A stretch of DNA of 46,841 bases from Bacillota bacterium. GTDB lineage: Bacteria; Bacillota; Bacilli; Alicyclobacillales; SLC66. Each line of letters begins with the position of its first letter. Position 1 is the first letter of the stretch. The DNA lies in assembly GCA_021821085.1 (NCBI GenBank), contig JAKACV010000020.1:1-46841 (forward strand), in the 5' to 3' direction. Position numbers and translations under genes: made by a program. A model generated the notes under the pieces. It was given only the letters and a program-made list of their open reading frames with translations, had not been told where the DNA came from and did not search any database. Shown piece by piece: positions 32,231 through 37,795 of this stretch.

Positions 32231-35200
32231 TCATTCGGTCGCGATGTCTTGCTCCGTTTGTGCGGAACCAGGTCGAACCATAGCAAAATGTTCCTGTGGA
32301 CTGCTCACTAGTAATTGTAGTCGCTCCGCTTCTCGCTGTTGTCCAGAGCGGACGAGTTCCTTTTGATAGATGGAAAGAAGTTCTTGTACATCTTGGATTC
32401 CGGATGCATCGAGTGCGGTCAAAGTTACCTTTGCGCCCTTTGCTAATCTGCGTTTTAGCGCTTCTACAGTGAGTCCCATTGCAGGATTCACTCGCAGATA
32501 GACGACACCACCAGTCATTCCAGAACACATCCACGGACCTGGATTTCCCAATATAAGTGCACGTCCACCAGTCATATATTCAAAGGCAAAACCTTTAATA
32601 TTTGACCGTAGAGAAAGTCCACCGCGCGAATCATCAAGTGGTGAGGTTACTTCCCCGCCGATGATTAGATCAGCACCCGACAGCCGAATTCCAGCGCGTG
32701 AGTCTGCATCCCCTTGAACAATAAACAAACCGTGTTGTGCCCCGTAAGCGAGCCCTTTGCCGACTGAGCCACCAATTCGCTGTCCGTAACGGTTTACGCC
32801 TTTTAAGATAACAATCTTTCCACCCATTGTTCCTTTGCCGACGCCATCTTGAGCGCCCCCTTCTACACGCAAATGGACGCCGCGTGCGTTGTATGCCCCA
32901 AAGCCGTTGCCTGCAATTGAACCGCTCAACAGTTTGATAGACGCCTTATCCAGACCTTTTTTGCGATCTCGAATTTCTCTTCGCACAACTGAACCCGATA
33001 GCATGCCTCCTATGACGCGTTCAGGTGATTGGACTCGTGTCGCTCCAAATTGCAGAGCTTCACTTCCTACAGCCATTGCCGATACGGCTTGTTCACCCAG
33101 TTGTGCGGTGATTGAATGCACATCTACACTACTTGTTCGAGGTGATTTCCAGGTATATATATATTGGGCCGATTGATGGCGTACAAGTAGGTCGTCAAGA
33201 TGAATTCGTTCAAGCTCTCGAGTCTGTTCAAGGAGTTCGGAGTGACCAACAAGATCTTGCAATAATGTTGCACCTAATTTTGCCACGACTACTCGTGTCT
33301 CGTTCGCTAATTCAGTGAAGAAATGTGATAATTGCGCCACGGCAATTTCTAGATTGCGTGGAGCAAAAGCTTTTAACCCATGTTCTGTCGCTTGTTGAAT
33401 CGTTTCAATTTGCGTCGCAATCCCGACATGACAAGTATCCATATGACAGGCTCGACAACTCGTACAACCAATCGCTACCATGGCCATTGTTCCAAATCCA
33501 ACGCGATTTGCTCCTAGTAGCACCATTTTAACGATGTCTAATCCCGTTTTCATACCGCCGTCACACCAGAGTTCAACCACGTCGCGTAAACCAGATTCAA
33601 GCAATGCTTCGTGTGCCAATTTCACACCGATTTCGATGGGTAAACCCACATGTTTAAGAGCATGTGCACGCGCTGCACCTGTCCCCCCATCAAAACCACT
33701 GAGGGTGATAATGTCGGCCCCAGCCTTGGCGATTCCGACGGCAATCGTACCAACGCCGGTCACCACAGGAATTTTCACAGAGACTTTAGCGCGTGGATTC
33801 ACGATTTTCAATTCGTCAATCATTTGGGCAAGATCTTCAATTGAGTAGATGTCGTGATTATTTGAAGGTGAAATAAGATCTGTTCCCTGTCGCGCATTAC
33901 GTGCATTTGCTACTTTTTGTGAAACTTTTGAACCAGGCAAATGCCCACCTTCACCAGGTTTTGCCCCCTGTCCAATCTTAATCTCTAAGAGATCGACTGA
34001 GTTGCACAATTCGGCGTTTACACCAAATCTACCGGATGCAATTTGATGACCGCGATTTTTAGCATATTTGCCAATCATGTCTTTAATCTCACCGCCTTCA
34101 CCGTTCAGTGAAAGCATATCAAGCTCTGTCGCGGCAATCGCATAGGCGCGAAATGCTGTTTCGTTTTGGGAACCAAATGACATGGAACTAATAACGAATG
34201 GGAGAGCGTGTTCACCTATGGATAAGTCTACCTGTTCCGGCGCCACTTGTTCAGGTTGTGTCTTGAAATCTAATAAATGACGTAAGGAAATTGGTTGCTT
34301 TCTCTCTAGTTCCTGTAATTTTTTGCTGTATTCTTCGTACGGAATATTCCCCGCAGCTGCATCTCCCGCTGCCTTCCAAATTCTTGGCCAAAGTTGATAT
34401 GGACGCGTTGCAGAACTTTTGCCTTCGCGAAGCAGAGTCGCTCGTTGGCGAGTTGCTGTCAGAAGCGCTGAGAACCCACTGAACGTCGCGCTACTGTCGA
34501 AAAATGATTTAATCTCCAGTAGCTCTGCGACTTCCTTGGACAATCCGATGGCGCTAAATAATCGGTCATATCCACGAACTTCGTGAATGCCAAGTGTGGA
34601 GAGCACTTTTTCAAGTCCTTTTGTCGAAGCCTGATAGGCATTTTCAATACCTTTCCAAGCGTCGATGCTATAGGCGCTAGCAAAATACAGGTAGGGACAC
34701 ACCGCATCCGCACCAAGTCCGATCATTATAACGAGGTCATGTAAGTTTCGAATCGCACCAGATCTTAGAATGAGGCTACTATTTCGGCGTGCGTTAGATC
34801 CATCTGGCAATTTGTAGTTGCGCAAAGCGATATGTGCCATACTGATTGCAAGGGCAGGATCGACAAATGTATTGTCGTCTGCAAATGCTAACTGATCGTC
34901 CAAAATAATTAAACTGGCCTGTTCATTTGCCGCTGCAATAACTTCCTCACGAAGTCGCTGTAGCGCTTCTTCCAATGTTTCTCCCGCTTCGACTCGCGGA
35001 TAAATTTCCACAACATCACCAGGTTTGCCCGAAAAATAGCGCAAAACGTCTTCGAATAGTTGAGTGCCAAGCTTATGCGCTAATGTGCGGTAACGATCAG
35101 CCTCTTCGAGTTGATGTCCGCCAAGCAAAATGGGACTTTGTAGTTCCAGTCGTAACGACTTATAGTCTGTCTCTGAAACAGTCGGTCGTTTTCCTAAAAC

Positions 35201-36757
35201 TACCCGGGTGGAGAAGTGTTCAATTTCCCGTTCACGATCAATTGCGGGATTTGTGACAACCGCAACCATTTCTTTGATGTAATCTGAAATATTTTGTTGA
35301 CGTTCAGAAAGAATGGCGAGTGGTCCATCAAACCCTAATGAACGAATCGGTTCTTGTCCTGTCGTTGCATGATGCTCTAAAATTCTCACATCATCGACAT
35401 CCCAACCAAATGCCCCCATCAGTGCTTCTCGACTTTTCTCCTGGATTCGTTGTGGTGTTAAGTGAACCTCGCCAAACACAGGGGGTCCTCCAAATGCAAT
35501 GGCGTGCCGATATCCTTCAAAATGATAGCGTTGCTTCATCCGCTCATAGGCCAATTGTTGTGCTTCATGATAGGAATAGGTAATCGTTGGTGAAGATTCA
35601 TGTACCTCCAGATAAACCTTTTCTCCAGGACTGAGCGGGCGTGGATCGTGAATCATCTCTGACAGTGGAACAATGCCTTGTTCTGAACTGAAAATCATAC
35701 TTGATTCTGTTTCAACCATCCACAGAGGTCGTAAACCTAATGCGTCTACAGAAAAAATCGCCTCATCACCTGAGCGCGCGATAATTGCTGCTGGTCCTTG
35801 TGCAAAAGGACCAAAAATAGAGCGCATAAACATATAGAGATCTTGTAAGTGCGGTGGCATATGTTTTATTTCATGAATAATAGGTGGGAACACCAATTCC
35901 AAAGCTTCAAGTAACGTAAAACCATAGCGGCGACAGAGTCCTTCTATGGCTCGGTTGAGATCTTGTGAGTCGGAACCACCAAGTGTTGTGGGGATATTTA
36001 ACATTCGCATTTCTTCGCGTAAACGATATATGGTATTCAACTCACCGTTGTGTCCCAATAGAGAGAACGGTTGAACGCGTTCAGATGATGTCGCTGTATT
36101 TGTCGAATAACGATTATGTCCAAGTGTAATTCTGCTTTTCATTTCTTTGTGTAAAAAATCATTGTAGTATTTTTGTAAAGTAAGGCTATCGCCACGCACT
36201 TTATATACAACGGAATGATTAGAAAGAGAAGCTACGTGTGCGATATTAGTTTCTTCAATAGTTAATTCCAATTCAAAACAGGCTCTTTTAATAGTACTTT
36301 CGTTGTCGAATTGCTCCGACCATAATGCTGCTTGGATAAAATGTAGACCTTCAGATGCACCACCTGGTCCAAGTACATGTGGATTGACTGCATCAGTTAC
36401 GACAGTCATTATCGAAAAACCCGCTTCGGTAGCTAACTGACGTAACGAATGTTCAAACTGAGAAAGAGGCTGGCCTACGTGGTTGGATAAGATAAAATGT
36501 CCAACTACAAATCGGGGGTCGTACGCATCATCAGGTGCTTTCCCATTCTTGGTTAAATGATCTGCCCAAATTCCACGTGGAAGATCGATGAGAACGCCAC
36601 ATCCATCCCCCTCATTTTCAACAAAACCAGCACGGTGATGCATTTGATGTAACGCGTGCAAGACGTGATCAACGTTTTCTCTAGAGGCGTATGACGCTTT
36701 TTCCACCCAAGCTACGATTCCACACGCATCGTGTTCTTCTCTCTCTAAAAATGCCAT
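32231..36757 (-). CDS. gltB: Glutamate synthase large subunit
   Basis: This enzyme makes two glutamates from glutamine and 2-oxoglutarate. Starting at ATG 36757 (GGGAGG 10 nt upstream) it has 1508 aa. The class II glutaminase domain follows a short propeptide, with the nucleophile at Cys12 in EHDACGIVAW. The FMN domain has SGFDGGTGAARAH. The 3Fe-4S cysteines are in GCTSCRACHMDTCHVGIATQ. The GXGXG domain lies near the C-terminus (GGSVGKGLAYGAQHGLF). No gltD-type small subunit is adjacent, so electrons must come from elsewhere. A ykkC-type riboswitch and terminator precede it. Confidence 0.94.
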   Translation of the reverse strand: MAFLEREEHDACGIVAWVEKASYASRENVDHVLHALHQMHHRAGFVENEGDGCGVLIDLPRGIWADHLTKNGKAPDDAYDPRFVVGHFILSNHVGQPLSQFEHSLRQLATEAGFSIMTVVTDAVNPHVLGPGGASEGLHFIQAALWSEQFDNESTIKRACFELELTIEETNIAHVASLSNHSVVYKVRGDSLTLQKYYNDFLHKEMKSRITLGHNRYSTNTATSSERVQPFSLLGHNGELNTIYRLREEMRMLNIPTTLGGSDSQDLNRAIEGLCRRYGFTLLEALELVFPPIIHEIKHMPPHLQDLYMFMRSIFGPFAQGPAAIIARSGDEAIFSVDALGLRPLWMVETESSMIFSSEQGIVPLSEMIHDPRPLSPGEKVYLEVHESSPTITYSYHEAQQLAYERMKQRYHFEGYRHAIAFGGPPVFGEVHLTPQRIQEKSREALMGAFGWDVDDVRILEHHATTGQEPIRSLGFDGPLAILSERQQNISDYIKEMVAVVTNPAIDREREIEHFSTRVVLGKRPTVSETDYKSLRLELQSPILLGGHQLEEADRYRTLAHKLGTQLFEDVLRYFSGKPGDVVEIYPRVEAGETLEEALQRLREEVIAAANEQASLIILDDQLAFADDNTFVDPALAISMAHIALRNYKLPDGSNARRNSSLILRSGAIRNLHDLVIMIGLGADAVCPYLYFASAYSIDAWKGIENAYQASTKGLEKVLSTLGIHEVRGYDRLFSAIGLSKEVAELLEIKSFFDSSATFSGFSALLTATRQRATLLREGKSSATRPYQLWPRIWKAAGDAAAGNIPYEEYSKKLQELERKQPISLRHLLDFKTQPEQVAPEQVDLSIGEHALPFVISSMSFGSQNETAFRAYAIAATELDMLSLNGEGGEIKDMIGKYAKNRGHQIASGRFGVNAELCNSVDLLEIKIGQGAKPGEGGHLPGSKVSQKVANARNARQGTDLISPSNNHDIYSIEDLAQMIDELKIVNPRAKVSVKIPVVTGVGTIAVGIAKAGADIITLSGFDGGTGAARAHALKHVGLPIEIGVKLAHEALLESGLRDVVELWCDGGMKTGLDIVKMVLLGANRVGFGTMAMVAIGCTSCRACHMDTCHVGIATQIETIQQATEHGLKAFAPRNLEIAVAQLSHFFTELANETRVVVAKLGATLLQDLVGHSELLEQTRELERIHLDDLLVRHQSAQYIYTWKSPRTSSVDVHSITAQLGEQAVSAMAVGSEALQFGATRVQSPERVIGGMLSGSVVRREIRDRKKGLDKASIKLLSGSIAGNGFGAYNARGVHLRVEGGAQDGVGKGTMGGKIVILKGVNRYGQRIGGSVGKGLAYGAQHGLFIVQGDADSRAGIRLSGADLIIGGEVTSPLDDSRGGLSLRSNIKGFAFEYMTGGRALILGNPGPWMCSGMTGGVVYLRVNPAMGLTVEALKRRLAKGAKVTLTALDASGIQDVQELLSIYQKELVRSGQQREAERLQLLVSSPQEHFAMVRPGSAQTEQDIATE

Positions 36758-36790
36758 CGTCTCCATTCCTCCCAAAACTCTCTCTTATAT

Positions 36791-36835
36791 ACAACAAAAC
36801 GGGGAGATCCCCCAAGAAGTCAGGGAACCTCTCCG
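36791..36835 (-). terminator. Riboswitch expression-platform terminator
   Basis: On the minus strand CGGAGAG (36829-36835) pairs with CTCCCCG (36800-36806), with an inner UCCC/GGGGA, and then U-rich GTTTTGTTGT (36791-36800). The 5' arm is also the conserved end of the aptamer, so ligand binding and termination should exclude each other (an ON switch). Confidence 0.6.
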
Positions 36836-36957
36836 CTGAGTTTTTTATCCTCACGGTGTGCCGCATTAGCGCATGGCCTGCACCGCTTGGTCCTGTCTTG
36901 CACATGAACAAGGCAAGCCGGATCCCTAGGTGCACTTCCTCTGTAGTTCAGAGTATA
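36827..36957 (-). ncRNA. ykkC-family riboswitch, subtype 2 (ppGpp or PRPP type)
   Basis: On the minus strand three conserved blocks occur in the correct order: CCTAGGGATCCG (36919-36930), GGACCAAGCGGTGCAGGC (36876-36893), and ACACCGTGAGGATAAAA (36843-36859) followed by a CGGAGAGG end. The GGACCAAGCGGTGCAGG form is the subtype 2 version, distinct from the GGTCCGAGAG guanidine-I form. As I recall it, subtype 2a RNAs bind ppGpp and occur upstream of amino-acid and glutamate synthase genes, while subtype 2b binds PRPP at purine genes. The gltB context favours ppGpp. It lies within 100 nt of the gltB start codon. Confidence 0.78.
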
Positions 36958-37033
36958 TCTGTGAATGCATAATAATGCAACGATTTTGTGTTCGTATTCG
37001 TCTAATAGAACTTGCCGAATTCACTATGGAGCG

Positions 37034-37795
37034 TCAAAATCCGCCGTCTTGATAGGCGGTGCCCATCATGGCTTTTAGTGCATCACGCACTACGTCAATG
37101 GCAATGGCAAACCCAATGCCTTGTGAACTCTGACTAACAGCAGTATTAATCCCGATTACTTCGCCGTGCATATTAATTAACGGTCCACCGGAGTTCCCTC
37201 GATTAATGGCCGCATCTGTTTGTAACAGATGCGGATAGGTACGATCGCCAATTTGCATTGGTCGCTCTTTGGCGCTAACGATTCCAACCGTGACAGAATG
37301 ATCTAGTCCAAGAGGGTTTCCTACAGCGAGCACCCATTCGCCAACCTTGACGTCTTTTGAGCGACCCAAGATAAGGACAGAGATGTTTTTGGGTAAGGTT
37401 ACTTTTAATACGGCCAAGTCATGTTCGTAATTTGTGCCAACGACGTGTGCAATAATTGGCTTCTCTTTTCCAAGCATTTGAACCATGACTTTGGAGGCGC
37501 CATGAATGACATGTTCATTTGTTAAGATATATCCTCGCGGGTCAAACACGAATCCTGTTCCGATGTTTAGGGCTTGTGGCTCGTGATTGGGCATTGCCTC
37601 CCAGGGAAATCCAAATGGCAATACTGTAGATCGCGGACGCGTGTTTTCCTGAGTCACTTCAACTCCCACAATGGCACTTTTGTATCGCTCAACGATTGTG
37701 ACAAAATCGAGAGTTCCCCCGCGACGATTGGGCTTGATTGCGCCTAGTTTGCGCTTTGCAGTCTGTTTTTTTAGGTTTGGCCCCTTCTTCTGCAA
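37034..37795 (-). CDS. HtrA/DegP-like serine protease lacking PDZ domain and membrane anchor
   Basis: A 253-aa trypsin-fold protease with a complete catalytic triad: His95 in ILTNEHVIHG, Asp126 in NYEHDLAVL, and Ser202 in INRGNSGGPL. Bacillus HtrA proteins have an N-terminal membrane segment and a C-terminal PDZ domain; both are absent. The N-terminus is a basic tail (KKQTAKRKLGAIKPNRRGG). It may therefore work in the cytoplasm or in spores. The start is TTG 37795 after GAGGTG. It lies upstream of gltB on the same strand but is separated by the riboswitch. Confidence 0.87.
   Translation of the reverse strand: MQKKGPNLKKQTAKRKLGAIKPNRRGGTLDFVTIVERYKSAIVGVEVTQENTRPRSTVLPFGFPWEAMPNHEPQALNIGTGFVFDPRGYILTNEHVIHGASKVMVQMLGKEKPIIAHVVGTNYEHDLAVLKVTLPKNISVLILGRSKDVKVGEWVLAVGNPLGLDHSVTVGIVSAKERPMQIGDRTYPHLLQTDAAINRGNSGGPLINMHGEVIGINTAVSQSSQGIGFAIAIDVVRDALKAMMGTAYQDGGF

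Follow-up and report, generated by a model that had tools for sequence, protein, structure and literature searches.

The gltB leader and its parts

The window analysed here, a stretch of 46,841 nucleotides, carries on its minus strand a full aptamer of ykkC subtype 2 followed by an overlapping intrinsic terminator (36943..36791). Upstream lies an ORF for an HtrA-like protease, ending at 37034, and downstream lies gltB, which encodes the large subunit of glutamate synthase (32231..36757, minus strand). The listed gltB ORF (36775..32231) opens at TTG 36775; comparison with relatives makes the ATG at 36757 the likelier start. The GltB protein is full-length, with domain and family matches to NF008730, Glu_synthase and GATase_2. 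A preliminary description of this DNA had placed a ykkC subtype-2 RNA with all three conserved blocks ahead of gltB, and this was borne out: the blocks AAGTGCACCTAGGGATCCG (36937..36919), GGACCAAGCGGTGCAGG (36893..36877) and ACACCGTGAGGATAAAAAACTCAGCGGAGAGG (36859..36828) are present where claimed on the minus strand, with a covariance-model match over the leader and the full-length gene behind it.

Read along the minus strand, the order is the P0 5' strand, CUAGGGAUCCG, GGACCAAGCGGUGCAGG, ACACCGUGAGGAUAAAAAACUCAGCGGAGAGGUUCC and the terminator, and the refined boundaries of the aptamer including P0 are 36943..36821. The P0 5' strand (CAGAGGAA, 36936..36943) contributes a GGAA that pairs with UUCC of the 3' strand. 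It is followed by the P1 arm (36879..36934) with the CUAGGGAUCCG and GGACCAAGCG blocks, in which alignments place a G at nt 48 and a C at nt 49, and by a putative variable P2 hairpin (36860..36878) placed by its position in alignments A1 and A2. A74, C75, A76 and C77 and the P3 hairpin CCGUGAG..CUC-A-GCGG come next (36833..36859; nucleotide roles from PMC6031431), and a linker with the P0 3' strand, AGAGGUUCCCUG, closes the aptamer (36821..36832). Both P0 strands, 5' of P1 and 3' of P3, are thus present; the three P0 pairs counted form in all 13 gltB leaders compared here (that of the window and 12 from relatives) and never vary. Nucleotide numbering was set from the primers printed in PMC6031431, which give CGGGAGGAUAGGUUUCAC as the 3' end. 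Because the length between C75 and G105 is fixed, nt 96 (T. mathranii numbering) falls at window position 36837, where the alignment has an A.

A sigma-A-type promoter, TTGCAT-17-TATACT, was found at 36952..36980 on the minus strand. Its -10 element ends 8 nt ahead of P0, and the transcript should therefore start at about the beginning of the aptamer. A fixed consensus promoter scan did not list this promoter; its form TTGCAW-17-TATANT, with the spacing of 17 conserved, nevertheless recurs in 12/12 gltB leaders whose upstream sequence is long enough, and it ends 7-8 nt ahead of P0. At the other end of the leader, the intrinsic terminator CGGAGAGGUUCCC..GGGGGAUCUCCCCG followed by UUUUGUU (36791..36835, minus strand) has a stem-loop of -22.6 kcal/mol (z -3.6), was also recovered by a second scan, and excludes P0 and the 3' strand of P3. 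The earlier proposal that the end of the aptamer doubles as the 5' arm of a terminator ahead of gltB holds in the window, where CGGAGAGGUUCCC overlaps the aptamer 3' strand. It holds equally across the set, with terminators that use the aptamer's own 3' strand in 13/13 leaders (-19.7 to -27.3 kcal/mol, z -2.7 to -5.1). A terminator arm shared in this way with the strand that ligand would stabilise is the arrangement predicted for an ON switch. By analogy with the competition between P1(P0) and the terminator described for the Cba ppGpp riboswitch (PMC10687018), promoter, aptamer and shared-strand terminator together have the make-up of a transcriptional switch that would be ON as long as ligand keeps P0 closed.

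Subtype and ligand-class markers

At the gathering threshold, Rfam gave no riboswitch match at the leader. In a permissive search the Guanidine-I model (RF00442) aligned from end to end with a score of 32.3 bits, against a cut-off of 63 (E-value 3.6e-4 in the local search and 6.3e-4 over the genome), whereas genuine guanidine-I leaders of relatives reach 76.9 to 98.3 bits. Guanidine-I RNAs share the fold and the CUAGGG core, and RF00442 was the only Rfam match. However, the score is about half the gathering score, P0 is present, the downstream gene is unrelated to guanidine, and nt 49, which is A in guanidine-I RNAs and a pyrimidine in subtypes 2a and 2b (PMC6031431), is C in the window RNA (GGACCAAG-C-G). 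On score and nt 49 we rejected a guanidine-I riboswitch, to which we give almost no credence, and the preliminary assignment to subtype 2 is upheld. The same permissive model, run genome-wide, found no second ykkC RNA in the window's own genome; a short-pattern search there gave 43 sites against 27 with the reversed pattern, which is chance-like.

Covariance models for subtypes 2a (ppGpp) and 2b (PRPP) were built only from other orders, with the window and its order left out, and leaders were sorted by downstream gene rather than by nt 96, with gene names checked on representatives. The test sets comprised 45 leaders of amino-acid, glutamate synthase or transport genes and 55 leaders of purine genes. 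A covariance-model scan had been proposed as a check of the preliminary description, and it was significant: the 2a model matched the window RNA at 75.8 bits (E 9.4e-20) and had no further credible match in the window. The 2b model gave 66.5 bits, bits being comparable between the two models and raw E-values not, as their calibration differs. The resulting 2a-minus-2b difference is +9.3, above that of any of the 12 orthologues (0.1 to 8.9); ilvE leaders lie at about +11 to +22 and PRPP leaders at about -9 to -22. By this measure the window sides with 2a, and the orthologous leaders fall in between. A column classifier from which nt 91-102 were omitted likewise grouped all 13 gltB leaders with 2a, the window by only 4.0 bits, with the 5' block GGAAG leaning to 2b (-7.1 bits); the 3-nt linker is also more 2b-like.

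Single positions were then compared with published roles. Nucleotide 96 is G in over 97% of PRPP aptamers, whereas ppGpp aptamers lack it or have A, C or U there; the partner of C75 is either G96 or the ppGpp guanine (PMC6031431). The window RNA has A at nt 96, as in 2a and not 2b, and retains C75 within A74 C75 A76 C77. The gene downstream likewise fits the amino-acid, glutamate synthase or natA context of 2a and not the purine context of 2b. The purine-gene leaders have G96 in 55/55, and neither a G81-C95 pair (0/55) nor an AGGUUCC end (0/55); G81-C95 occurs in 28/29 amino-acid leaders with an insert at nt 96. Both G81-C95 and AGGUUCC are present in 13/13 gltB leaders; of these, 12 have G96 and the window alone has A96. 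The ilvE leaders L116, L117 and L118 read GACUC-A-GCGGAU at this place, the window AACUC-A-GCGGAG, the common stretch being ACUC-A-GCGG. The preliminary description had offered ppGpp or PRPP as ligand; A96, G81-C95, AGGUUCC and the model scores favour 2a, and so point to ppGpp. In four further leaders of amino-acid type, located before ilvE, ilvD or a symporter-like gene (L143, L149, L164, L220), C95 is followed by a two-base GA bulge; since G stands first in that bulge, the one-base nt 96 rule is not absolute.

These markers also bear on a 2b reading, in which A96 pairs with U80, a bulged G97 replaces G96, and PRPP turns gltB on. That register is slightly better in predicted energy (-7.9 vs -7.5 kcal/mol), and the window RNA resembles the T. 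mathranii 2b structure (PMC6031431) in scaffold, P0, 3' length and GGAAG; the leaders of sister species, all 12 orthologues, carry G96 at the 3' length of PRPP aptamers. It differs, however, in A96, in the Watson-Crick 81-95 pair and the AGGUUCC end (both unseen in the purine set), in the 9.3-bit lower 2b score, and in having an amino-acid gene behind it with neither a purine gene nor a tandem guanine aptamer. Moreover, G96A alone switches the T. mathranii aptamer from PRPP to ppGpp, raising the Kd for PRPP to about 1600 uM (PMC6031431). In view of nt 96, the 81-95 pair and the model scores, PRPP was not preferred, and we consider it an unlikely ligand.

Orthologous leaders and the history of nt 96

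The permissive Guanidine-I model was run over 61 related genomes, the leaders were retrieved and the next gene was read. Matches were obtained in 41/61 genomes and, within the window's own family, an orthologous leader lies directly before gltB in 12/17 other genomes (L042, L044, L045, L047, L049, L051, L053, L054, L056, L058, L061 and L079). This comparison of relatives' gltB leaders, put forward in the preliminary description, yielded the same architecture in all 12, which are 2a-like everywhere except at nt 96, where they have G, the PRPP hallmark. No gltB leader was found outside the family among the matches read, the order having just two families in the search. A genome-wide pattern scan returned only four loci, one of them in Sulfoacidibacillus thermotolerans.

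The 13 gltB leaders have a mean column identity of 79%. Pairs of the named secondary structure form in 99.6% of cells, and in 24-40% when the structure is slid. Covariation, which had been proposed as a check on the P1 and terminator stems, supports the structure in part: P1 has two compensatory pair changes, both in L053, and the terminator is kept in 13/13, but most other pairs never vary, and their near-invariance leaves P0, P3 and the shared strand with little to say. A different leader precedes ilvE in most members of the family. In the window's own genome no close orthologue of that ilvE was found (best match 35% identity), and the missing orthologue and second ykkC RNA could reflect either loss or an assembly gap.

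In a GltB tree, the window sits inside a three-species clade with 100/100 support, together with two G96 relatives of its own genus; the rest of the family is all G96. The simplest history suggested by these sequences is that the window's A96 is derived, by one G-to-A change on its branch. The A at 36837 may also be an assembly error. The window departs from an otherwise invariant column at just one other place, nt 91, by a G-to-A change; both bases are frequent at that position elsewhere. Two such changes that the window alone carries could be taken as a decayed switch that has lost ligand control, yet all other invariant columns, the promoter and the terminator are retained, and in other 2a leaders an A is nothing unusual at nt 91 or at nt 96; we regard decay as very improbable.

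The intermediate position of the group bears on a further reading, in which the gltB leaders form a 2a/2b hybrid class for another phosphorylated nucleotide (pGpp, GDP or similar) or for ppGpp and PRPP together. The group scores between ilvE and PRPP leaders with both models and has fixed differences of its own, GAUCCGGC and GACAGGACC, but these lie mostly outside published ligand contacts and the window has the standard 2a discriminator, so that such a class seems distinctly unlikely. We also entertain, with considerable doubt, a history in which the gltB leader was ancestrally G96 and PRPP-responsive or dual, and a single natural G-to-A change at nt 96 made it a ppGpp switch in the window's species. 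If true, nature would have arrived at the change made in the laboratory as G96A, and glutamate synthase would have been rewired from a purine-precursor signal to the starvation alarmone.

Proposed control of gltB and related RNAs

Taken together, the leader is probably a ppGpp riboswitch of ykkC subtype 2a that switches gltB transcription ON, a reading in which we infer ligand and direction of control from sequence. Directly observed are the architecture of the RNA, the orthologous leaders, the overlap with the terminator, the promoter and the gene, together with a RelA_SpoT protein of 787 aa, the size of a bifunctional Rel, encoded in the same genome; ppGpp is therefore expected in the cell. 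The transcript would begin at P0 and fold into a four-way-junction aptamer. On amino-acid starvation ppGpp would rise, and its guanine would pair with C75, taking the place held by G96 in PRPP aptamers. Bound ppGpp would stabilise P0 and keep the strand GCGGAGAGGUUCC in the aptamer, so that no terminator forms and polymerase reads into gltB; without ligand, the GCGGAGAGGUUCC strand would pair downstream and transcription would stop. The G96 of the 12 orthologous leaders speaks against a typical 2a assignment.

A 2018 study (PMC5912903) assigned glutamate synthase leaders to the ppGpp class, subtype 2a, and genes for glutamate synthesis are among those that ppGpp riboswitches activate (PMC7266159); the window leader thus adds an example to a known class. 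It resembles 2a ppGpp riboswitches (Sherlock 2018; PMC5912903, PMC7266159) in architecture, C49, C75, a non-G nt 96, G81-C95, P0, the overlapping terminator and the glutamate synthase context, but has GAUCCGGC for GUUCCG, GACAGGACC for CUGGUCC and a 3-nt linker. Furthermore, it precedes a full-length gltB, whereas four clostridial leaders of the glutamate-synthase type, which are clean 2a RNAs without nt 96, precede a stand-alone class-II amidotransferase gene. With the T. mathranii G96A mutant (PMC6031431) it shares the base at that position and the switch from PRPP to ppGpp that would go with it; the mutant is a laboratory change in a 2b aptamer, whereas the window has a natural change within an orthologous set.

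In the literature examined, we found no description of a family-wide 2a-like gltB leader with G96, or of the A96 exception. If the proposed control is correct, the alarmone of the stringent response would control a full-length glutamate synthase of an acidophile-related family directly through RNA. The orthologous set, twelve leaders with G96 and one with A96, amounts to a natural test of ligand change in ykkC RNAs, and it warns that sorting by this one base may misplace RNAs that look like 2a in all other respects.

The search also retrieved other ykkC RNAs. In the neighbouring family, xpt and pbuX are preceded by tandem guanine-PRPP leaders, and NUDIX-associated leaders also occur. Among the latter, L064, L067, L074 and L076, of the subtype 2c type, have conserved blocks that are nearly identical across several genera of that family. 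Before a natA-like ABC ATPase gene in the same family, L113 and L224 have the GGGAUCCG form seen in the gltB leaders, without nt 96. Finally, one small contig (C13 of genome G016, L063) carries two strong Guanidine-I riboswitches 3 kb apart.
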